From contig JAJYCL010000010.1 in assembly GCA_021778415.1 (NCBI GenBank), positions 38,388 to 71,445 on the forward strand: a stretch of 33,058 nucleotides of DNA, read 5' to 3'. Positions within the stretch are counted from its first letter, which is position 1. The number at the start of each line of letters is the position of its first letter. The notes under the pieces were generated by a model that saw only the letters and a list, made by a program, of their open reading frames with translations, was not told the origin of the DNA and did not search any database. The translations under genes and the position numbers were made by a program. This document shows positions 3,485 through 21,112 of the stretch, one piece after another. The DNA comes from a bacterium. Its GTDB lineage: Bacteria; Vulcanimicrobiota; Vulcanimicrobiia; Vulcanimicrobiales; Vulcanimicrobiaceae.

Positions 3485-5557
3485 ATGGATCGTCGTTTAC
3501 TCGCACTCGCAGCGGTGCTCACGCTTTCGTTCGTCGCCTGCGGCGGCGGAAGTGGAAGCAGCACGCTTTCCGCCGTTCCAACGACGAATGGGAGTGGGCC
3601 GAATTTTGCTCCGTACACGGGGCCTGCCGCACTTGCTAGTTTTACCTGGAATAAACAACTCGTCACCCAAATGCAATACCTCGGCCCGGCGGGCCCAGGG
3701 GCAATGGAAGTTCATGTTGGCGTAACGATGCAGAACGCGGCGGGGCTCGCCGCCTACGCGCAACAGGTGAGCGATCCGTCCTCACCGTTGTATCGCCATT
3801 TCCTGACGCCGCAAGAGATCGGCGATCGCTTCGGCGCTTCGCAGAGCGATTACACGGCGGCCGCAAATTATTTTGCGTCCTTCGGCATGAAAGTCGGCGG
3901 TTGGCCGCAGCGCGAAATGCTCGCCGTTACGGGTTCGTATCAGCAACTCGGCGCAGCATTCGGCACGACGTTCGGCAAATATCGCATCGGTAATATTGTC
4001 GGTATCGCGCCGATATCAACACCGCATCTCGCACGCGTTGCTCCCATTGCGTCGGTTGATGGGTTGGCCAATGTGCAACTCTTGCATAGCGATATGGTCC
4101 GCGTTACGAATTCGTTCTTTACCGGCTATTCGCCGCAGCAACTCGCGAACGGCTTCGATTACACCGGCGCGTATAGCGCAGGCTACAAGGGCACGGGTAT
4201 GACCATCGGAATCATTGGGACCGGCCCAATCGATAGCCGCGATCTCACAAACTATGCTGCGCTCTATCACGCGCCGGTGGCAACGATTACCCAAGTCGCG
4301 GCATCGCCGCAAGCTGCATCGACGCAAAACGGGAACACCGGCACGGGCGCGTTCGATCCGAATCCGCAAGGTCTTGCGACGCCACCGCCCGTCACCGCAC
4401 CGGCGACCGGAGCCTGCGTGCTTCCGGCGTGCAACCAGGAAGACGGCGAAGCGCAATTGGATACGCAATCCATTGCATCGCTTGCTCCGAGTGCAAACGT
4501 CCTTTTCTATCTCGCCTATAATCCGACGCTTTGTGTAAACAATACGACGAACGCCGTAACTGCGCCGCCATGCGCTTCCGGCACGACCAACACACCGCAA
4601 ATCGGTATCCAATTACTCGATGATGAGATTCAGCAAGCCATCGCCGATAATAAGGCCGATGCGGTGTCGATTTCCGTCGGCGGCCCGGAAAACGCGCAGG
4701 GGGCATACGGCTTGCCGGGCGGGCTTGGCGATCTCGAGTACGCGTCTCTCGCTGCCGAGGGCATCGCAACATTCATCTCCTCGGGCGATGACGGTGCGTG
4801 GGAAGCGCAAAACCTGGCTGGTACGTATACCGGTGTTCCGGTGGTTTCTTTCCCCGCCAGTGATCCGAATGTCGTCGGCGTCGGCGGCGTGAATATTCCG
4901 CTCGATGTCGCCGGGAAGCTCACCAACGCGATCACCACGTGGGGCGATAACACCACGGGCGGCGGCGATGGTTCATTTAGCAATAACGTTGGTTCCGGTG
5001 GCGGAATCTCGGGGAATTTCCCCGCGCCGAGCTATCAAAGCGCGGCGATCTCCGGTATCACGAAGCGCGAAGTTCCCGATATCGCGCTCGATGCCGATCC
5101 GCTCACGGGCCCGGCAATTTTGCAGAACTCCGGCTTCGCCGGGAAATCACAGCTCTACGCCAGCGGTGGCACATCGGCCGCGGCGCCGGAAGCTGCCGCC
5201 ATGTGGGCTCTCGTCTTAGAAGCGTGTAACGCGACGCCTGCGTGCAAAACCGGGCCGGCTGCCCACCCCTACCGCTTAGGGAATCCGGATCCGCTTTTCT
5301 ATTCCATCTACCATTGCGTCACCGCCCCGTGCTCCGCACTGGGTACCGGCACGTTCGTTTCGAGCCTGCCGTATTCGCAAACGGTCTACGATGTGTTGTA
5401 CGGTGCGAACACGGCCGTCCCGGGAGCCCCGACGCCGGCTCCTCCCGCGACTCTCGCTGGTTACTCTGCGGGTCCCGGGTACGATATGGTCACCGGAATC
5501 GGCGCACCGTTTGCGGGGCATCTGATTCAAGCAATTACGGGCCAAGCCGTCCCGTAG
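3485..5557 (+). CDS. S53 family (sedolisin/kumamolisin-like) serine-carboxyl peptidase lipoprotein, copy A
   Basis: 690 aa. The lipobox is at Cys19 (S-F-V-A-C-G-G-G). A pro-kumamolisin activation domain covers roughly residues 70-220, including PLYRHFLTPQEIGDRFG. In the catalytic domain the S53 Glu-Asp pair is E322 and D326 (G-E-A-Q-L-D-T-Q), the oxyanion-hole Asp is D435 (S-S-G-D-D-G), and the nucleophile is S564 in GGTSAAAPEAAA. The likely calcium site uses D636 (V-Y-D-V) and D667 (GPGYDMVTGIG). All signature residues are present, so it should be active. Known family members are acid endopeptidases that mature by removing the propeptide. GGAGG at 3470-3474 is the ribosome binding site, and a terminator follows at 5611. 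Confidence 0.92.
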   Translation: MDRRLLALAAVLTLSFVACGGGSGSSTLSAVPTTNGSGPNFAPYTGPAALASFTWNKQLVTQMQYLGPAGPGAMEVHVGVTMQNAAGLAAYAQQVSDPSSPLYRHFLTPQEIGDRFGASQSDYTAAANYFASFGMKVGGWPQREMLAVTGSYQQLGAAFGTTFGKYRIGNIVGIAPISTPHLARVAPIASVDGLANVQLLHSDMVRVTNSFFTGYSPQQLANGFDYTGAYSAGYKGTGMTIGIIGTGPIDSRDLTNYAALYHAPVATITQVAASPQAASTQNGNTGTGAFDPNPQGLATPPPVTAPATGACVLPACNQEDGEAQLDTQSIASLAPSANVLFYLAYNPTLCVNNTTNAVTAPPCASGTTNTPQIGIQLLDDEIQQAIADNKADAVSISVGGPENAQGAYGLPGGLGDLEYASLAAEGIATFISSGDDGAWEAQNLAGTYTGVPVVSFPASDPNVVGVGGVNIPLDVAGKLTNAITTWGDNTTGGGDGSFSNNVGSGGGISGNFPAPSYQSAAISGITKREVPDIALDADPLTGPAILQNSGFAGKSQLYASGGTSAAAPEAAAMWALVLEACNATPACKTGPAAHPYRLGNPDPLFYSIYHCVTAPCSALGTGTFVSSLPYSQTVYDVLYGANTAVPGAPTPAPPATLAGYSAGPGYDMVTGIGAPFAGHLIQAITGQAVP

Positions 5558-5969: not shown

Positions 5970-7409
5970 GTGAGCACACGCTTTATGGTGTTCGGAGCAG
6001 TTGCGCTTGTCGCGTCGCTTGCTGCTTGCGGCGGCGGTGGCGGCGGTTCGTCGACTCCCGGTAGCAACGTCATTCCAACTGCCGGACCGGCAACCAATAA
6101 CGGAAATCTGATTTCGTCGGATGTTTTCAAACTCCAATATACCGGAGTGAAATCGGTCAACGATGTCTACACGTATGGATCGGGTCCGCTCGGATCTCCG
6201 AGTCCAAACCCGCCGTCGACGGCGATCTACGCCGTGCAAAGTACGGTGCAGGCCGCTCTCAATGCAGCGCCTTCTACCGTGCCAGTTACTGGTCCGTATC
6301 TCGATGTCAATTCGACGGAGCTCGATTCCTCGAATCTTGCCAGTCAAGAATTTGTGACCGATGCGTGGGTGCAATCGTCAAGCAGCGGCGGCGCTCTTGA
6401 ATACGGAACGCAGTTGATGCAGCCGCTCTCGGCGGAACAGCCGAATACGTTGACGGCCTACGTCGATCCGGTTACCGGCAAGGCGAATCCGCAACAGCTC
6501 GATCAGCTGCCGGAGACATCCGGCGCGTCGTGGACAAACGAGCCTGCAGCCACCATTTCGCAATCGTTTGCCGATGGTCACTCGGTAAAACGCTTTGTGT
6601 ATGCAGATGGAACCTATGTCGATAATGATTCCATTCCGCTGCCAACAGGCGGGGTAGCGTATGCCATCATTCAAGAAAATAGCGATGGCTCGGGATCGTA
6701 CACAGCACCATTTGCAGGTGGAAATGTGTCATCGGTTTCAGTGAGCGCTCCGGCGCTTCCGACGCCTGTTCCAACGGGCACACCGAATCCGATTACGACG
6801 CCGCAAGTGACGGTAACATTGAAACTTGCTGGATTCTACGCGTCGATCTTGGGGCCGACGATCAGTGCGCAATTTACACCGTTTTACGTCTATACGCCGA
6901 AACCGGTGTTCTACTCGGAAACCGATGCAGTCAACACCGCCGGAAGTTTTCCCGCCGGATGCGCCAATTCGTATGGCGCCAGCGGACTTGAACTCGTGCG
7001 CAAAATTGCAACGCTCGATACCGTTCTCGGATACGTCGAAACGACGGAGTTCGATGCCTATGCAGCTGCCGGATATCCGGTGTGCGTTGTTTCTTCCGAT
7101 GTCATCAACTACGCCTATGATTATGCCGGCGATACCGTCGGAGGTTTGGGCGGCTTCCTCTTCGGCCAACTCGGGGGTCGCATTACGACAACCTCGCAGA
7201 CGCTCGTCTTGCAGCCGGGTGCCACTGGAGTCTATCCAAGTTCGACGACTCGTCAGCCAAGCTCGGTCGGAGGTGCGCCTCCGATTGCATCTTCCGTCTT
7301 TGCCGGCATTGAATCCGCAACGTTGCAAACGTATGCCGTCCGACGCAATGCCATCATTCGTGCATACGCTTTAAGTACGCATTCACTCCCGAACGGTGGA
7401 GGGAAGTAA
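5970..7409 (+). CDS. Lipoprotein paired with S53 peptidase, copy B
   Basis: 479 aa from a GTG start. No in-frame ATG fits upstream, and the nearest upstream ATG (5949) is closed at once by TAG. The lipobox is L-A-A-C at Cys20, followed by Gly/Ser residues. The protein is Thr/Ser/Pro/Gly-rich. The C-terminal third contains KIATLDTVLGYVETTEFDAY, VCVVSSDVINYAYDYAGD and TTTSQTLVLQPGATG, which align in order with the equivalent parts of the gene at 2084. The two N-terminal halves look much more diverged. The ATG of the S53 peptidase lies 4 bp after its stop. Probably an envelope-anchored, beta-rich partner of that peptidase; its biochemical role is unknown. Confidence 0.8.
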   Translation: MSTRFMVFGAVALVASLAACGGGGGGSSTPGSNVIPTAGPATNNGNLISSDVFKLQYTGVKSVNDVYTYGSGPLGSPSPNPPSTAIYAVQSTVQAALNAAPSTVPVTGPYLDVNSTELDSSNLASQEFVTDAWVQSSSSGGALEYGTQLMQPLSAEQPNTLTAYVDPVTGKANPQQLDQLPETSGASWTNEPAATISQSFADGHSVKRFVYADGTYVDNDSIPLPTGGVAYAIIQENSDGSGSYTAPFAGGNVSSVSVSAPALPTPVPTGTPNPITTPQVTVTLKLAGFYASILGPTISAQFTPFYVYTPKPVFYSETDAVNTAGSFPAGCANSYGASGLELVRKIATLDTVLGYVETTEFDAYAAAGYPVCVVSSDVINYAYDYAGDTVGGLGGFLFGQLGGRITTTSQTLVLQPGATGVYPSSTTRQPSSVGGAPPIASSVFAGIESATLQTYAVRRNAIIRAYALSTHSLPNGGGK

Positions 7410-7413
7410 GGTT

Positions 7414-9519
7414 ATGAATTTTCGTCAATCGATATCGGCTCTTGCGGCCATCGGCGCGCTTGCGCTCACTCTCTCCGCGTGCGGCGGCGGTGGCGGCGGA
7501 GCAACCACGCTTCCGCAAACATCGGGAAATCCGACCGGCGGATACAACCCTGCGCCATATAATGGCCCGGGCTCGCTTGCCATCAATTACGGTGCGCCGA
7601 TGATGAGCAATTTGCAATATGTCGGAAATGCATCGGTTCCGGCCATGCATGTCAACGTGCAGGTCGCAATGCAAAATGCGCAAGGACTCCTTGCGTATGC
7701 ACAGAGCGCAAGCGATCCGAAATCGCCGCTGTATCGTAAGTTCCTTACCCCGGATCAGATCGCAACGCAATTCGGTGCGACGCAGAGCGATTACAATGCG
7801 GCTGCTGCCTATTTGCAATCGTATGGCTTAGTCGTTGGAACGTGGCCGCAGCGCTTAGGGCTATCGGTAACGGGAACGCAAGCACAGATGCAAGCCGCAT
7901 TTGGAACGACGTTCGGAACATTTACCTATCAAGGGAAATACGTCATCGCCCCAACACAAGCGCCGCATTTATCGCGCGTTGCGCCGATTACCGGCGTGTT
8001 TGGCCTCATCGCGGTGCAAGCGGCCAAACCGCTGTTCATCCGCGGAACCGGTCTCTATAACGGCCTCTCGCCGCAACAGATAGCAAGTGCTGCCGATTTT
8101 TCGGGCGCACGCTACGGCGTCGGTTTTGGCGGATATACCGGCAAAGGTGTCAGCGTTGGCATCATCGGTACCGGCCCGATTATGGCCGCAGATACCGCCG
8201 GATTCGCGACGCACTTCAATACGCAAGTAGCGACGATCACCACGGTAATGGCGCAACCGCAACCGGCCTCGCCGCAAAATGGCGGAACGGGAACCGGGGC
8301 GGTCGATCCCTATCCGGGCGGTCTGTCGCCAACGGCACCGCCGGTCACGGCGCCCTGCTCGCAGCCGACACCTGGCCCGTCGGGGCTCGTACCGGCAAAT
8401 TACAATGTCTGTAATCCCGAAGACGTCGAAGCGCAACTCGATACCCAATCAATTGCGGGCCTCGCTCCGGGTGCCAACGAGTTGTTCTATTTCGCCTATA
8501 ACCCGTCAATCTGCGTCATTCTCTCAACTGGTGCGTATGCGCCGGTGCAATCGACGCCGTGCCCGGCGGGTTCCTCGGCCTATCCGCAAATCGGCATTCA
8601 ACTCTCCGACGACGAAGTTCAGCAAGCCATCGCCGATAATCGGGCGGATGTCCTCTCGCTGAGTTACGGCCTTCCGGAAAACTTGGCGCAGGCATTCGGC
8701 TTGATTCAAGGCCCGGCAACGGGCGGTGCTCCTGGGTTCGAGCAAATCGAATTCGCCTCACTCGCGGCCGAAGGCATTGCCGTCTTCGTCTCTTCGGGCG
8801 ATAACGGCGCCTGGGATTGCCAGGATCCCGCGTCAGGAAATTATCTCGGAATTCCCTGCGTGAGCTACCCGGCGAGCGATCCGAATGTTGTCGCCGTCGG
8901 CGGGGCAAATATTCAGGTCGACGAGTCGGGCAACCTCACGGGCCCGATGACCGCATGGGCGGATAACACGACGGCCGGCGGAAGCGGCACGTTTAGCAAC
9001 GATGTCGGTTCCGGCGGCGGCATTTCGATGGCCTTCACGCCACCGGCATGGCAACTTGCGCTCGTGCCGGGTGCGGTTGGTCGTGAACTCCCCGATGTCT
9101 CCCTCGATGCGGATCCGCTCACCGGACCGTCGATCGGGTACAATCTGGCCTTCCCGGGGCAAGGCGGCTTTGCGCCGATTGGCGGCACCAGTGCCGCAGC
9201 TCCGGAAACCGCCGCGCAATGGGGTGTGGTGCTCTCGGCCTGTGCCGCGAATCCAACCTGCGCCACGGCCCCTGGTCCCAAACCGTATCGCCTCGGCAAT
9301 CCGGCGGCGATCTACTACGCGATTGCCTCCTCGCCAGCCGGCTATGCCGGAACGTTCTACGACATCATCACCGGGAGCAATCAGGCTACCGCTCCGGGAA
9401 CGGGCGGACAGCCTGCCGGATACAACGCCGGCCCCGGCTACGATATGGTCACCGGTATCGGCGTGCCGTTCACCGGTCATCTCATCGATGCCATTATTCC
9501 AGGACAAAAAGTGCCGTAA
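7414..9519 (+). CDS. S53 family (sedolisin/kumamolisin-like) serine-carboxyl peptidase lipoprotein, copy B
   Basis: 701 aa from the ATG at 7414; an upstream in-frame GTG is rejected because GGAGGG (7398-7403) is placed for the ATG. The lipobox is at Cys23 (L-S-A-C). A pro-kumamolisin domain covers roughly residues 60-215 (PLYRKFLTPDQIATQFG). Catalytic residues are E339 and D343 (V-E-A-Q-L-D-T-Q), D463 (S-S-G-D-N-G) and S593 (GGTSAAAPETAA). Likely calcium ligands are D650 and D677 (GPGYDMVTGIGVPF). Copy A has the same domain order and motifs. A longer insertion with several cysteines before the Glu-Asp motif distinguishes this copy. It probably works outside the cytoplasmic membrane on proteins or peptides. 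Confidence 0.92.
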   Translation: MNFRQSISALAAIGALALTLSACGGGGGGATTLPQTSGNPTGGYNPAPYNGPGSLAINYGAPMMSNLQYVGNASVPAMHVNVQVAMQNAQGLLAYAQSASDPKSPLYRKFLTPDQIATQFGATQSDYNAAAAYLQSYGLVVGTWPQRLGLSVTGTQAQMQAAFGTTFGTFTYQGKYVIAPTQAPHLSRVAPITGVFGLIAVQAAKPLFIRGTGLYNGLSPQQIASAADFSGARYGVGFGGYTGKGVSVGIIGTGPIMAADTAGFATHFNTQVATITTVMAQPQPASPQNGGTGTGAVDPYPGGLSPTAPPVTAPCSQPTPGPSGLVPANYNVCNPEDVEAQLDTQSIAGLAPGANELFYFAYNPSICVILSTGAYAPVQSTPCPAGSSAYPQIGIQLSDDEVQQAIADNRADVLSLSYGLPENLAQAFGLIQGPATGGAPGFEQIEFASLAAEGIAVFVSSGDNGAWDCQDPASGNYLGIPCVSYPASDPNVVAVGGANIQVDESGNLTGPMTAWADNTTAGGSGTFSNDVGSGGGISMAFTPPAWQLALVPGAVGRELPDVSLDADPLTGPSIGYNLAFPGQGGFAPIGGTSAAAPETAAQWGVVLSACAANPTCATAPGPKPYRLGNPAAIYYAIASSPAGYAGTFYDIITGSNQATAPGTGGQPAGYNAGPGYDMVTGIGVPFTGHLIDAIIPGQKVP

Positions 9520-15407: not shown

Positions 15408-16912
15408 TTCGTCGCATGCTTTTGGCCTGTTGCTGTGCATTTCTTACCGCCGCTGCTCCGTCGGTAGCGAATTCGCATGCTCCCATAACCTTGGTCATCA
15501 ACGGTGATCGCGTTGCCGTTGCGCCGTCTATTACGATTGTCGGCTCGACGATTTTTGTTCCATTGCGAAAAATTCTCGATATTTTCGGCTTGCCGTTTGA
15601 TCTGCATGGAAAAAACGTAACGACGCAAGTCGGCTCGTCGGTGGTAACGGTGACGATCGGCAGCGATATTGCCCGAGTCGATGATCGAATCGTTCGCTTA
15701 AACTCACCCGTTCGCGAGATTGGCGGAGCCGCGTACGTTCCGCTACGATTTATCACCGATGTGTTAGGCGCGCAGGCGACGTACGATAGCAAACTCCGCG
15801 CAGTCAACGTGAGTGCCGATCGTATCGGCATTACGGGATCCGGCCTCGTTCGTCGCGATGGACGATTGGTGGCAACCGGCACCGTGAGCGCCATCGATCT
15901 TTTAACCGATCCGCCGACCGTTACGCTCGTCAACAATGGCGTTGCTCACACCTTTCCCATGTCCTCGGACGTGACGGTGACCGCGCAAGATGTGGTGTTG
16001 AATGTTCGAACGCCCGGCGAATTGGCATCGATCCACCCGGGAGATTTTGCGCGCATCGCGCTCGGTCGCGATGGACTGGCGCAGTATGTTACGGACGCGT
16101 TCGGATCTCGTGCGGGCCGTATCATTGCCGTCGGCTCCGGCCTGATGCTGCTCGATGATGGTGAAATGATTCGTCCGGTCCGCGGCACGACGATTTCGCT
16201 CAACGGCAATGTCGTTGGGATCGACGCGTTACACCCCGGCGATCAGGTTGTCGTTCGATATAATGTCGAGTCCGGCGAGACGCGGGAAATTCTTGCCAGC
16301 CGCTCGATCGGTGAAGTACCGCAGTCGAATTCAACGGTAAAAATTCTCTCCGTGAGCACCGATGCACAGCGGCCGCTACGCGCCGGGGAAATTCTCCGAG
16401 TGACGATGCAAGGAACTCCGGGCGGTCAAGCATGGTTTGATATCGGGCCATTCGTTCAGCATGTTCCCCTCGTCGAATCGGGAAGCGGAACGTATTCTGG
16501 CACCTATACGATTAAAGCGGGCAGCAATTTTACGGACGTGCCGATTATTGCTCACCTCCAACGTGCAAGCGGCGATACGGCGACCGCCGAAGCGAGTGAC
16601 CATCTCTCCGCCGCAACATCGCCACCGGCGATTTCCTCCTTCGGTCCGCGCGACGGGGCAAACGTCACGAGTCGTCGCCCGGCGATCTTTGCGACCTTTG
16701 CGACGAGCGCCGTGGCCGTCTCCCCATCGTCGGTCATGTTGCGGATCAACGGTCACGACGTGACCGCAAGCTGTATCCGGACGCACCGTTTTATTTCGTA
16801 CCTTCCGAGCGTCAATTATCCGCTGGGCGTGGTCACCGTGGAAGTCCGTGCGACGGACTTCGCCGGAAACGCAACCGATTTTACCTGGCATTTCCGCATA
16901 ACCAGAGGATGA
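15404..16912 (+). CDS. Secreted protein with copper amine oxidase N-terminal-like domain
   Basis: 502 aa, starting ATG in an ATGA overlap. A signal peptide covers residues 1 to about 23 (MIRRMLLACCCAFLTAAAPS). Residues ~27-140 match the copper amine oxidase N-terminal domain family (PF07833 type): LVINGDRV, GSTIFVPLRKILDIFG and AYVPLRFITDVLGAQATYD, with the two characteristic 'vPLR.i.e.lG' repeats. This domain is common in secreted wall-associated proteins and does not imply amine oxidase activity; no catalytic domain follows. Residues ~140-300 look like two beta-rich repeats (TVSAIDLLTDPPTVTL; GRIIAVGSGLMLLDDG). The C-terminus, from about FGPRDGANVTSRRP to DFAGNATDFTWHF, resembles a bacterial Ig-like domain. 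Probably a surface glycan-associated protein. Confidence 0.8.
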   Translation: MIRRMLLACCCAFLTAAAPSVANSHAPITLVINGDRVAVAPSITIVGSTIFVPLRKILDIFGLPFDLHGKNVTTQVGSSVVTVTIGSDIARVDDRIVRLNSPVREIGGAAYVPLRFITDVLGAQATYDSKLRAVNVSADRIGITGSGLVRRDGRLVATGTVSAIDLLTDPPTVTLVNNGVAHTFPMSSDVTVTAQDVVLNVRTPGELASIHPGDFARIALGRDGLAQYVTDAFGSRAGRIIAVGSGLMLLDDGEMIRPVRGTTISLNGNVVGIDALHPGDQVVVRYNVESGETREILASRSIGEVPQSNSTVKILSVSTDAQRPLRAGEILRVTMQGTPGGQAWFDIGPFVQHVPLVESGSGTYSGTYTIKAGSNFTDVPIIAHLQRASGDTATAEASDHLSAATSPPAISSFGPRDGANVTSRRPAIFATFATSAVAVSPSSVMLRINGHDVTASCIRTHRFISYLPSVNYPLGVVTVEVRATDFAGNATDFTWHFRITRG

Positions 16913-17532
16913 TCTCGCACGAGTATCGCTGTATTTTTGTTCACATACCGAAATGCGGCGGAACAAGTATTGAAAATTGTATTTGGCCGGGTCATCGCAG
17001 CGAGGCGGACTTGTGGATGGGTTTTACGTCGCGGTTTGAAAATCGTTATCAAACCGGGGGCTTGCAGCATTTACTTGCCAAGCAGATTCGTGATGCAGTC
17101 GGCATCGAAACGTTCAACGCCTATTTTCGCTTCGCCGTTGTGCGTAATCCCTTTGACCGCGTCATCTCGCAGTACGCGTCGATGCGCCGCCGGCCCGATC
17201 TGCGCGAATTTATCGGCATGAATGAGCATGCGGAGTTTAAGCGTTATCTTGAACTGATCATGAAGAAGACTCATGTTCAGTGGATGCCTCAAACCTCGTT
17301 TTTGTACGATGATGACGGAAGCCTCATCGTTGCGCAGATCGGACGATTCGAGCGGCTCGATGAGTATGCGCGTGCCCTTTTTGCTCGCCTCGGCATACCA
17401 GCGTCGCTTCCACATGCAAATGCCTCGTCACGGCAGCCTTTGGAGGCGTATTACGATGACGAGGCACGTGCAATGGTTGCGTCGCTCTACGCTGATGATC
17501 TTACAGCGTTAGGCTATTCGTTTCCCGACTAG
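16909..17532 (+). CDS. Sulfotransferase family 2-like protein
   Basis: 207 aa in an ATGA overlap with the preceding gene. The 5'-phosphosulfate-binding loop is H-I-P-K-C-G-G-T-S at residues 12-20, with K15 in the expected place. The 3'-phosphate motif is R79-N-P-F-D-R-V-I-S87. These match the sulfotransferase family 2 (PF03567-type) enzymes that move sulfate from PAPS to carbohydrate hydroxyls. It has no signal peptide or transmembrane anchor, unlike eukaryotic Golgi relatives. As the last gene after two glycosyltransferases and a secreted protein, it may sulfate a glycan precursor in the cytoplasm. The stop overlaps the convergent tail-collar gene by four bases (CTAG). Confidence 0.88.
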   Translation: MISHEYRCIFVHIPKCGGTSIENCIWPGHRSEADLWMGFTSRFENRYQTGGLQHLLAKQIRDAVGIETFNAYFRFAVVRNPFDRVISQYASMRRRPDLREFIGMNEHAEFKRYLELIMKKTHVQWMPQTSFLYDDDGSLIVAQIGRFERLDEYARALFARLGIPASLPHANASSRQPLEAYYDDEARAMVASLYADDLTALGYSFPD

Positions 17533-18047
17533 TTGCGTGACGGGAAAATTCCAACGAGGGCAATGCAATAATTCACCGTGAGATAGGGCTGCAGATTGTT
17601 GACGGGTATGCCCTGACCCGTGTTGCCGATTGATCGGGGACTCATTGTGGTGTTCGGAGCATTTGCCGAGTACATCTTATCGGTCGTCGATACTCCGATG
17701 ACGTGATTCGGTCCCGGAAATTCTTTCCCCGATCCGGTCGAATCGCCGAGTAGCCCGTGCGAGTGCGGTGGAAGATTGCTTGTCGTCAGCGTGTTCGTTT
17801 CATATCCACCGATTTGGCCCAAGAAATACGGACTGAGGCCGGGGCCATTGCCGGGGTGGATGGGGACGCGACCCTGAAAATTTGGAAGGCCAAAGGTCGT
17901 GGTCCCGTTGCCGCCGTAGGTCGTCCCCAGGAGGGAAAAGAGCGCGGAATATTGAGAAATCGCAAGCAGTTGCCCGTTGCACAAGGCAAAGCCAGCAGGG
18001 GCAAAATTGCCGCAGAAGAGAATAATCATGCCAAGAAATGGATTCAT
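17529..18047 (-). CDS. Phage tail collar domain protein (microcystin-dependent-protein type)
   Basis: 172 aa, beginning MNPFLGMIILFCGNFAPAG. The tail-collar core is complete: F-A-L-C-N-G-Q-L-L-A-I-S-Q-Y, then SLLGTTYGGNGTTTFGLPNFQGR, and LPPHSHGLLGD with paired histidines as in T4 gp12 metal-binding folds. The ending LQPYLTVNYCIALVGIFP is typical of the stand-alone bacterial tail-collar proteins often found in tandem. AGAGAGG precedes the ATG. No other phage gene is nearby, so it is probably domesticated. Its place beside a sulfotransferase, a Nif11-like protein and a hydroxylase suggests a surface or secreted structural protein that may be modified by these enzymes; that link is inference. 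Confidence 0.9.
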   Translation of the reverse strand: MNPFLGMIILFCGNFAPAGFALCNGQLLAISQYSALFSLLGTTYGGNGTTTFGLPNFQGRVPIHPGNGPGLSPYFLGQIGGYETNTLTTSNLPPHSHGLLGDSTGSGKEFPGPNHVIGVSTTDKMYSANAPNTTMSPRSIGNTGQGIPVNNLQPYLTVNYCIALVGIFPSRN

Positions 18048-18136: not shown

Positions 18137-18574
18137 ATGAATCGTCGTTTTTTTGTGCTCGCTTGCTCCTCGGCGGTCTTTGCCGGATGCGCCGGCCATC
18201 ATGCTTCGCTTTTGCCGTCAACCAAAATTGGCGGGCAAAACGTCTCCAGCGATCCGACGCAATATCCAATGCGGCCGCTACCGACGAACCCCATCATCGG
18301 AGAAGTGCGGCGTTTCGATGGAACAGCGCCACCGCAGGCGTGGGCGTTTTGCGATGGACGCGCGTTGGCCGTCGAGCAGTACCCCGTCTTAGCGCAGATG
18401 CTACGCGGCCCAATAAAGCCGGGGCAATCGGCGACGTTTGCCTTGCCCAAGTCGAGCAGCTACACGTTTGTGATTGCTATTTCAGGGATCGTTCCAAGCA
18501 GCCCGTCGGTTGTGCAAACCGCTATGGATCGCCGTTCGCATCGTTATGCCGTCGGCAACGGCCGAGGAAGTTAG
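18137..18574 (+). CDS. Tail-collar-like lipoprotein
   Basis: 145 aa from the ATG at 18137, chosen because it starts a lipoprotein signal (MNRRFFVLACSSAVFAGC, Cys18 lipidated). A longer open frame upstream has no such feature. After a ~30-residue linker, residues ~53-130 follow the tail-collar pattern: IGEVRRFDGTAPPQAWAFC, then D-G-R-A-L-A-V-E-Q-Y-P-V-L, and a short F-A-L-P-K segment before the final strand. It lacks the T-Y-G-G-N-G loop and the histidines of the neighbour at 17529, so it is a reduced, membrane-anchored version. Fusion of a collar domain to a lipobox is unusual. It is divergent from one collar gene and convergent with the sulfotransferase-like gene (TTAG stop overlap). Confidence 0.75.
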   Translation: MNRRFFVLACSSAVFAGCAGHHASLLPSTKIGGQNVSSDPTQYPMRPLPTNPIIGEVRRFDGTAPPQAWAFCDGRALAVEQYPVLAQMLRGPIKPGQSATFALPKSSSYTFVIAISGIVPSSPSVVQTAMDRRSHRYAVGNGRGS

Positions 18575-19533
18575 CGACGAGTAAGGCGGCGAGCTTCAAG
18601 CTCGTCATAGAGCGGTCGTAGGTGCTCATTGACAAGTTCGCGGAGTTGCGGCGAAGCGACGGCCTGCTTTTCCTCTGCGTCTGCGGTAAATGTTTCATGC
18701 GGCCGCTTTGCATGGTAGCGCGAGAGCAGGGCTAACTCGTCGGGATCTGCGATCTCAATGCCAAACGCCGGTGCGATGCGAGAATTGATCGCATCCGGGA
18801 GTTCACGATAGTTGACGAGTTGATGTGGCTCGAAAATGCCGGTGAGAGCAGCGCTTAAGATCCGCGCAAGAACGCGGATGATAAGGAGTTCTCGCGGAAT
18901 CTTGACGGCATCCTGAACCGTCATTTCCAAAGTCGCGGGTGCATTTGCCGGCGACATCATGAAACTTTCCGTTCGTAGATGGGACACAACGACCTCGAGA
19001 GGGTCGCGGTAGAGAAAAAAACTCGGCGTGTGAGCAAACGTCTGCGTTATGGCGGCGTGATTATGCACGTGCCAGGCATCGAGTTTGATAAAGAGATGAC
19101 GTTCTTGCGCATCGAGCGTACGTCCGAGCGTTTGAACGATATTGAAGAGGTGCGAACGCGTTTGCTCGTGCGTTAGCGATGGATCGCGACGCGAAAGCTG
19201 CAAAACATCGTTAATCGGCCCTGCCTCGGAGAGGACAAGGGTATCACGACGATGATTGAATGCGCGGGAAACGAGCGTCGAGCCGCAACGCGAAAGATGG
19301 AACAGGAATCCGGCTGGCGGAAGGCTGCGCTCGCCTTGCGTGCATTCGTCAAGAGCATCGAGCGGTGTTTTTCTTGTGAATATGAGATTGAATGGGTGAT
19401 TGGCGCAGCGCTGCATCGTGTCGCCATAGGTTGGATCGTCGAAACGAATGTCCCCACGATAAAACCAATCGACCGCGTTTGCCTGCTCATCATGCGAGAT
19501 GCAAAATGGGGTCCAGTTCGTAAAGCGATTCAC
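18571..19533 (-). CDS. Sulfotransferase-like protein (PAPS-binding fold)
   Basis: 320 aa from a GTG whose bases overlap the stop of the upstream small gene as GTGA; an upstream TTG would overlap by 55 bp and is rejected. The phosphosulfate-binding loop is F-H-L-S-R-C-G-S-T at 78-86, and the 3'-phosphate motif is Y-R176-D-P-L-E-V-V-V-S184. The N-terminal segment (VDWFYRGDIRFDDPTYGDT) resembles that of bacterial sulfotransferase-like proteins with the 'HLSRsGST' loop. Their substrates are largely unknown. Coupling to the Nif11-like gene suggests it acts on that small protein or on the hydroxylase's product, for example sulfating a hydroxyl made by the hydroxylase. That sequence of steps is inference. 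Confidence 0.82.
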   Translation of the reverse strand: MNRFTNWTPFCISHDEQANAVDWFYRGDIRFDDPTYGDTMQRCANHPFNLIFTRKTPLDALDECTQGERSLPPAGFLFHLSRCGSTLVSRAFNHRRDTLVLSEAGPINDVLQLSRRDPSLTHEQTRSHLFNIVQTLGRTLDAQERHLFIKLDAWHVHNHAAITQTFAHTPSFFLYRDPLEVVVSHLRTESFMMSPANAPATLEMTVQDAVKIPRELLIIRVLARILSAALTGIFEPHQLVNYRELPDAINSRIAPAFGIEIADPDELALLSRYHAKRPHETFTADAEEKQAVASPQLRELVNEHLRPLYDELEARRLTRR

Positions 19534-19739
19534 GGTGTGCACGATCGTAACCAGGTACTGTTCCCAACTGCATGCGCCGACCAAAGTTCACCCTCGACGA
19601 CAGAAAAATCATGGTCCTTGGCATAGCGAAGGACGGCTGTTATCAAAGATTGCGGATCGGTAATGGAGAAAAATTCTTCTGCGAGCCCAGGGTCTTGATC
19701 GATATGCGCCTTTAATGCGGCGAAATCACGCGTTTGCAT
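19530..19739 (-). CDS. Nif11-like small protein (possible peptide precursor)
   Basis: 69 aa. Residues 1-53 fit the Nif11 leader-domain pattern: MQTRDF..LK..I, D-P-G-L-A-E-E-F, a D-P-Q-S-L-I-T-A-V-L helix, YAKDHDFSV and a closing E-x-E-L. Nif11 domains form leader peptides of some RiPP natural products in cyanobacteria and other groups. Here only ~16 residues follow (ending WLRSCTP), with one Cys, two Ser and one Thr, and there is no Gly-Gly cleavage site. The gene overlaps the hydroxylase by 14 bp and the sulfotransferase start by 4 bp (GTGA), so it is embedded in the operon. It may be a precursor peptide, a peptide-binding adaptor or a small regulator. Confidence 0.65.
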   Translation of the reverse strand: MQTRDFAALKAHIDQDPGLAEEFFSITDPQSLITAVLRYAKDHDFSVVEGELWSAHAVGNSTWLRSCTP

Positions 19740-20334
19740 GGTTGAATCTCAAAGCGGAGATGAGCCAAGAATTGACATTGCAATCGATGACTAAGTGGAT
19801 GCGATTGGTGTCGCCGGAATTTGCAACGCTATGCGGCCGGTTGACATCGACGTACCAGCATTCGCCCGGTGTCATCGCTATCGGAATGCCGTCAAGGATG
19901 AACTGAACACCAGGTCCAGTGGTAATGGGGATGTGTAAGCGAGCTTCGCCGAGCGCAAACTCCAGGCCATAATCACGATGTTCTCGGACGTGAGCGCCTG
20001 GTCCCAAGCGTAAAAAACGAATCGATGTTTTTTCACATTCGATCTCCTCAAGGAGACGACGAACGTTGGGGCAGCGATCAAGTGCCGACGTATTCGAGAA
20101 GCCGGACGCCGAATGGGGATCGGGATAGAGCGAAACGGAGTTTCCGCTTGCGCGTAAGGCAATTCCGCTCCAGTCGCCTTCATAATACCCGGTGTTAAAG
20201 TGCGGGAGCCATTCGTCGTCGGCAAAACCTAATGCATCGGATTCCAATCCGGCAACATCACAACGCAATGGCAAAACGACGCGGTCCGGATTTTCCACTC
20301 CGACGCATTTCGTCACACCATCCCCAAAACTCAT
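19726..20334 (-). CDS. Aspartyl/asparaginyl beta-hydroxylase-like 2-oxoglutarate oxygenase
   Basis: 202 aa from the ATG at 20332-20334. The open frame continues upstream only by translating repeats, and the ribosome binding site is poor, so a GTG a few codons downstream is possible. The double-stranded beta-helix core has iron ligands H119 (in H-R-D, with D121 able to be the carboxylate ligand) and H168 (R-P-H-S-V-A-N). R178 sits exactly ten residues later for 2-oxoglutarate. This matches the AspH-type spacing between second His and Arg. Family members hydroxylate Asp/Asn side chains in proteins. It heads a three-gene operon with the Nif11-like peptide and a sulfotransferase-like gene. The repeat array begins ~25 bp upstream. 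Confidence 0.85.
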   Translation of the reverse strand: MSFGDGVTKCVGVENPDRVVLPLRCDVAGLESDALGFADDEWLPHFNTGYYEGDWSGIALRASGNSVSLYPDPHSASGFSNTSALDRCPNVRRLLEEIECEKTSIRFLRLGPGAHVREHRDYGLEFALGEARLHIPITTGPGVQFILDGIPIAMTPGECWYVDVNRPHSVANSGDTNRIHLVIDCNVNSWLISALRFNHANA

Positions 20335-20358
20335 GCACGATACGCAACGCGCAGCCCC

Positions 20359-21112
20359 CGTCACGCTGAGGAGCGATGCGTAGCTTCCTGTCATGCTGAG
20401 GAGCGATGCGCAGCCTCCTGTCACGCTGAGGAGCGATGCGCAGCATCGCGTCTCGAAGCGCGAGGAGCAATGCGCACCCCCCTGTCGCTCTGAGGAGCGA
20501 TGCGCAGCCTCCTGTCATGCTGAGGAGCGATGCGTAGCTTCCTGTCATGCTGAGGAGCGATGCGTAGCATCGCGTCTCGAAGCATCATCGGAACGGAGCA
20601 CGCGAAGCGTGCAACAATTACGCCTGGCCAACCGCCCTTCGAGACGCACGCTTCGCGTGCTCCTCAGGGTGACGAAGCCTTGCCTGTCATGCGCGAGGAG
20701 CGATGCGTAGCCTCCTGTCATGCTGAGGAGCGATGCGTAGCATCGCGTCTCGAAGCATCATCGGAACGGAGCACGCGAAGCGTGCAACAATTACGCCCGG
20801 CTAACCGCCCTTCGAGACGCACGCTTCGCGTGCTCCTCAGGGTGACGAAGCCTTGCCCGTCATGCGCGAGGAGCGATGCGTAGCCTCCTGTCATGCGCGA
20901 GGAACGATGCGTAGCCTCCTGTCATGCTGAGGAGCGATGCGTAGCATCGCGTCTCGAAGCATCATCGGAACGGAGCACGCGAAGCGTGCAACCTTTCCCT
21001 GTGACCCGGCCCTTCGAGACACTCGCTTCGCTCGTTCCTCAGGGTGACAAGGTCCCTTCGAGACGCGCGCTTCGCGTGCTCCTCAGGGTGACGGCAGAGG
21101 GCTCAGGGTGAC
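20359..21112. repeat. Large compound array of palindromic repeats
   Basis: Short ~30-31-bp units of the form TGTCATGCTGAGGAGCGATG + CGTAGCCTCC (or variants) alternate with a long composite. The composite runs from TGTCATGCTGAGG through GCATCGCGTCTCGAAGCATC, a GAACGGAGCACGCGAAGC stretch, and an inverted CTTCGAGACGCACGC...CTCAGGGTGACG half. Composite copies begin at 20543, 20716 and 20920, giving steps of 173 and 204 bp; the second contains one extra 31-bp unit. The last copy is diverged after GTGCAACC. Several frames stay open through it and give MTGGCASLLS- or EERCVASR-like repeats, which are not genes. The array fills nearly all of the 807-base gene-free interval 20335-21141. Confidence 0.9.

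Follow-up and report, generated by a model that had tools for sequence, protein, structure and literature searches.

A Nif11 domain is usually taken to be a RiPP leader. The Asp_Arg_Hydrox family includes L-proline cis-4-hydroxylase, which acts on the free amino acid, and LpxO, which acts on a lipid. To our knowledge, protein sulfation in bacteria has been described in very few cases; a bacterial enzyme, RaxST, is counted with TPST1/2 among the tyrosylprotein sulfotransferases. We also know of no established function for the chromosomal tail-collar gene triplets (PF07484), which we take to be those of the COG4675 "microcystin-dependent protein". The leader role of Nif11 domains in other systems has been documented (PMC2887384), and in the N11P precursors similarity stops at a cleavage motif, usually Gly-Gly, beyond which lies a low-complexity region rich in Cys, Gly and Ser (PMC2887384). 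Here we compare these systems with a trio of genes that encodes a hydroxylase, a Nif11-like protein and a predicted sulfotransferase.

Gene layout of the trio

The trio lies on the minus strand of the window (the whole stretch of DNA that was analysed, 33,058 nucleotides) and is followed by two collar genes and a further sulfotransferase gene:

19726..20334, minus strand: 2OG/Fe(II) hydroxylase, Asp_Arg_Hydrox (PF05118), 202 aa, with H119-x-D121...H168 and R178
19530..19739, minus strand: Nif11-like domain as a stand-alone 69-aa protein, with a weak PF07862 match and fused homologues
18571..19533, minus strand: predicted PAPS-type sulfotransferase, 320 aa, GTG start, with conserved loops and a predicted fold
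18137..18574, plus strand: tail-collar protein 2, Pfam E 4e-9, convergent with the sulfotransferase
17529..18047, minus strand: tail-collar protein 1 (PF07484), 172 aa, Pfam E 1.5e-27, candidate substrate or partner
16909..17532, plus strand: second sulfotransferase, PF03567 (Sulfotransfer_2), E 7.4e-15, possible island member

The coordinates bear out the three overlapping minus-strand genes of the original prediction. The small ORF shares 14 bp with the hydroxylase gene, and its TGA overlaps the sulfotransferase GTG at 19533 within the 4-bp sequence GTGA. Collar gene 1 is on the same strand as the trio, 523 bp downstream of the sulfotransferase. Collar protein 2, whose ORF in its longest form begins at 18038, carries a lipoprotein-type signal (MNRRFFVLACSSAVFAGC; the lipobox was recognised by visual inspection). 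The PF03567 sulfotransferase gene is convergent with collar gene 1, and its product is unrelated to the trio sulfotransferase; its homologues occur near the trio in another genome, G005. Glycosyltransferase genes were found upstream in the window by Pfam scan. Just upstream of the hydroxylase gene, positions 20349-21105 hold dense 30-bp and 173/204-bp direct repeats as well as 18-bp perfect inverted arms. Farther away, two similar pro-kumamolisin/subtilase proteases are encoded at 3485-5557 and 7396-9519; in front of each gene lies a large ORF that no Pfam model matches.

Enzyme families and the Nif11-like domain

The hydroxylase falls within Asp_Arg_Hydrox (PF05118 E 5.9e-20, 72.1 bits against a cut-off of 22.6), and every aligned relative has H119, D121, H168 and R178, in agreement with the AspH-type H119/H168/R178 that had been read from the sequence. 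It resembles other members of the family (human AspH, L-proline cis-4-hydroxylase, proline 3-hydroxylase, LpxO) in its PF05118 match, its conserved HxD...H and Arg and, for AspH and the proline hydroxylases, its similar predicted fold, but differs from them in carrying or adjoining a Nif11-like domain and a sulfotransferase. Among solved structures, the best sequence match of the hydroxylase profile is L-proline cis-4-hydroxylase (5.6e-17), followed by proline 3-hydroxylase and a beta-hydroxylase from a nucleoside antibiotic pathway. When predicted folds are compared, the proline hydroxylases, the nucleoside-pathway beta-hydroxylase and human AspH are tied at a Z of about 16. Since the hydroxylase is equally near the proline hydroxylases and AspH, Asp/Asn specificity is not singled out. 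The LpxO and nonproteo_OH models match it weakly (LpxO 24.6 against a cut-off of 500).

Searches of the window sulfotransferase against Pfam and NCBIfam gave no match at E<=1, and its profile had no match among the sequences of solved structures. Nonetheless, all of the 61 sulfotransferase sequences compared share the S-R-x-G-S-T-L loop, E102, R175, P177 and S183, and the model (pLDDT 94.6) adopts a sulfotransferase fold. The PAPS-binding loops of the original prediction are thus upheld, and with this fold the window protein is classed as a predicted PAPS sulfotransferase. Its closest solved folds are TPST1/2 (Z 14.3-14.8 over 221-225 residues, 14-15% identity); other sulfotransferases reach Z 9-12, with the curacin-pathway and mycobacterial enzymes at about 12, some 2 below TPST1/2. 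An invariant Glu sits 21 residues after the Arg of the conserved 5'-PSB loop, presumably the spacing of the TPST catalytic base. TPST1/2 therefore offer the best solved fold and share the 5'-PSB loop, but the trio sulfotransferase is set apart from them by its low identity, by its Nif11 partner and by having no covering Pfam or NCBIfam model.

The window 69-aa protein matches Nif11 (PF07862) weakly, at E 0.01-0.024 and 15-16.5 bits against a cut-off of 23.8. However, a hydroxylase-fused Pseudomonas homologue (L090) scores 26.1 bits, above the cut-off, which argues that the Nif11 relation is real; the Nif11-like assignment first made for the small protein therefore stands through its fused homologue, while the window protein itself remains a weak match. 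PF07862 is found at E<=0.01 in 21 of the 58 members of set A5. In the model of a fused protein, the Nif11 part forms a domain of four helices, with pLDDT mostly 85-95. Trp is conserved at positions 59 (83/84 sequences) and 63 (75/77 sequences), and these two, the final Trp residues, rank with the best-conserved columns of the domain. In 76 of 78 relatives at most 3 residues lie between the end of the profile match and the end of the chain, which leaves no core. A Cys occurs within the last 15 residues in two of the 78; 22 contain a GG or GA dipeptide somewhere in their C-terminal half, but no tail follows the domain. Against TIGR03798 (N11P leader, cut-off 32.3 bits), the window protein scores 13.9 and ten relatives at most 30.5, so none reaches the cut-off. 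In comparison with the Nif11-related leader peptides (N11P, TIGR03798; Haft 2010, PMC2887384), the protein has a related helical Nif11 domain and is likewise a small ORF beside tailoring enzymes; it differs in having no variable Cys/Gly/Ser tail and in being fused to enzymes in 61 loci.

Distribution, gene fusions and collar linkage

Among 103 genomes of the window's order, the hydroxylase is present in nine, the window's own included; the other eight proteins are 48-54% identical to it, and in all eight genomes a sulfotransferase gene adjoins the hydroxylase, together with a small Nif11-like frame. A single hydroxylase sequence used as query over genome contigs gave no match, whereas an alignment query succeeded: searching 84,980 species genomes, it returned 80 loci from at least six phyla (Eremiobacterota, Myxococcota, Acidobacteriota, Verrucomicrobiota, Chloroflexota and Pseudomonadota), one of the 80 coming from an Acidimicrobiales MAG. 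In total 89 loci were collected, six of which are the same places fetched twice, leaving 83 distinct. In this sample, drawn by the hydroxylase and rich in Pseudomonas, a Nif11-like domain is found in 85/89 loci and a sulfotransferase in 86/89. Recurrence in nearly all of the 89 loci is far beyond chance, and the relatives in the order and in the 84,980-genome search rule out a single-genome oddity or a chance ORF. The outcomes that would have refuted the original prediction were not seen: the trio is conserved outside the window genome, and the small ORF is both conserved and Nif11-like.

The fusion of the Nif11-like domain with the enzymes is the key new fact. Among the 89 loci there are 59 AspH-Nif11 fusions and 28 stand-alone Nif11-like domains, as well as one Nif11-sulfotransferase fusion (L012) and one single chain in the order Nif11-sulfotransferase-AspH (L036). 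The domain is thus found at the hydroxylase C-terminus in 59 loci and at the sulfotransferase N-terminus in one, and the domain order in the fusions matches the gene order. At one locus (L016, 9508-10170, genome G100), a broken piece of a collar gene and a further Nif11-like copy, which looks degenerate, lie upstream of an intact trio. Two hydroxylase genes (L027, 7036-7602; L035, 9986-10549) have no sulfotransferase or Nif11-like gene within the fetched DNA. Both are accompanied by collars, DUF6916-like genes and GNATs.

The trio is linked to collar genes. Only two collar genes were found in the 2.59-Mb window genome, and both adjoin the trio. Across the 103 genomes of the order, all 11 genomes with the sulfotransferase are among the 21 with collars (Fisher p 1.8e-9, or 4e-4 when counted by genus), and each of the nine hydroxylase loci has a collar gene no more than 10 kb away, with an expectation of about 0.026 per locus. 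In Blastocatellia, with the sulfotransferase and not the hydroxylase as query, collars occur in 16/19 sulfotransferase genomes versus 46/143 others (p 1.8e-5), and the majority of collar genomes are without such a sulfotransferase. Of the ten genomes with close sulfotransferase homologues, at least five (G103, G104, G119, G176 and G208) have a collar within 10 kb of them; in nine genomes with lower-scoring relatives, none was seen adjoining collars. The 83 distinct loci contain collars (45), DUF4347 adhesins (36), GNATs (27), DUF6916 (24) and APS kinases (22). At least one of the island markers sought is present in 72 of the loci, and none in the remaining 11 (Myxococcota, Rhodanobacter and others). 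Bacterial tail-collar triplets therefore adjoin about half of the trio loci, but often occur without the module. Comparison with nine unlinked collars revealed no residue diagnostic of module-linked collar proteins.

The trio-type sulfotransferase is also found beside collars without the hydroxylase, in G092 (a second copy, with a Nif11-like gene), G096 and G097 (a second copy). On an Azospirillum plasmid (L117, 8484-18143), it is annotated as aspartyl/asparaginyl beta-hydroxylase, and the stretch gave no hydroxylase match; the cluster encodes PqqD, asparagine synthase, lasso B2, three tail-fiber proteins, a GNAT and an HPr-kinase-like protein (assigned by reading the sequence). Here, lasso-like machinery adjoins collars. 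In G029, a different hydroxylase (PF13640, 2OG-FeII_Oxy_3) and a different sulfotransferase (PF03567) are encoded beside a collar gene, and G005 carries both of these kinds close to its trio. At L113 (4189-7709), 2OG-FeII_Oxy_3, Sulfotransfer_2 and DUF4915 genes lie beside a collar, and no trio was found in that genome. As an independent parallel, the gene neighbourhoods of G029 and G005 support the view that hydroxylation and sulfation may be recurrent companions of collar proteins.

Possible substrates and reactions

We consider the chances about even that the trio is a protein-tailoring module acting on a co-encoded secreted or surface protein, with the Nif11-like domain holding the enzymes together or at their substrate. 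The helical Nif11-like domain, a separate subunit in the window genome and a built-in domain in others, would join the hydroxylase and the sulfotransferase or bring both to a common substrate, most likely the adjoining tail-collar proteins. The fusions, the spread over phyla, the predicted folds, the collar linkage, the genes for PAPS supply in some islands and the G029 neighbourhood speak for this reading. Against it count the many Blastocatellia collar genomes that lack such a sulfotransferase, the lower-scoring relatives not seen at collars, the 11 loci with no island marker and the want of a diagnostic collar residue. A relay, in which such an adaptor would serve hydroxylation and then O-sulfation of one residue of a surface collar-type protein or adhesin, is a more specific and rather doubtful version; we know of no described precedent for it on one protein residue. 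The two modifications might instead be independent, the sulfotransferase acting on Tyr (or Ser/Thr) of the partner and the hydroxylase on another residue (Pro, Asp, Asn), a tentative possibility that we rank below an even chance. TPST1/2 as the best structural matches, L-proline cis-4-hydroxylase as the best profile match and the hydroxylase-free sulfotransferases beside collars and beside the Azospirillum tail-fiber genes are all consistent with this arrangement; however, an acceptor cannot be deduced from similarity of fold, and such constant pairing, together with the triple fusion, suggests that the two enzymes share a site or, failing that, a substrate.

That the enzymes tailor small molecules, lipids or glycans, with the hydroxylase acting on a free amino acid or lipid and the sulfotransferase on its product or on a surface polysaccharide, seems to us improbable. 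Proline hydroxylases and the nucleoside-pathway beta-hydroxylase are near structural relatives, and the weak LpxO and nonproteo_OH matches and the upstream glycosyltransferase genes point the same way, but the LpxO score is far below its cut-off, no NRPS or lipid-A genes were noticed adjoining the examined loci, and both the Nif11 fusion and the association with secreted proteins favour a protein as the substrate. We regard as very improbable that the 69-aa protein is a RiPP precursor, hydroxylated and sulfated at its C-terminus, even though its gene is placed between those of two tailoring enzymes and Nif11 leaders are known elsewhere. The enzyme fusions, the conserved W...W helix end and the missing core mark the domain as most likely a part of the enzymes, and the precursor reading is rejected; with it falls the original prediction that the small protein is a leader or a modified peptide, as does the peptide half of its proposed target (a peptide or a partner protein), while the partner-protein half fits the data. 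With the precursor reading gone, the domain is most simply explained as an adaptor or scaffold, and fusion and gene order indicate that the Nif11-like domain is most likely an adaptor within the enzymes. Nif11-like ORFs beside tailoring enzymes, therefore, need not be precursor peptides.

Our search of open-licence papers on AspH with Nif11, collars with sulfotransferases, DUF4347/DUF6916 and the island genes retrieved no paper describing this module, which links bacterial protein sulfation, tail-collar triplets and Nif11 domains. The fused form provides a test case for bacterial protein hydroxylation and sulfation in cultivable bacteria, Pseudomonas among them. An APS kinase, a TolC-type protein, an M50-HlyD protein or a DUF4347/cadherin adhesin accompanies the sulfotransferase and the fused hydroxylase of Pseudomonas islands, and in pseudomonads the substrate could perhaps be the island's own giant DUF4347 adhesin. 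Separately, a Pseudomonas fuscovaginae sulfate adenylyltransferase/adenylylsulfate kinase mutant, Pfv 480, was virulence-deficient (PMC4237756). A full ATP sulfurylase-APS kinase is encoded in the L021 island, and an APS kinase is present in the window's genome.
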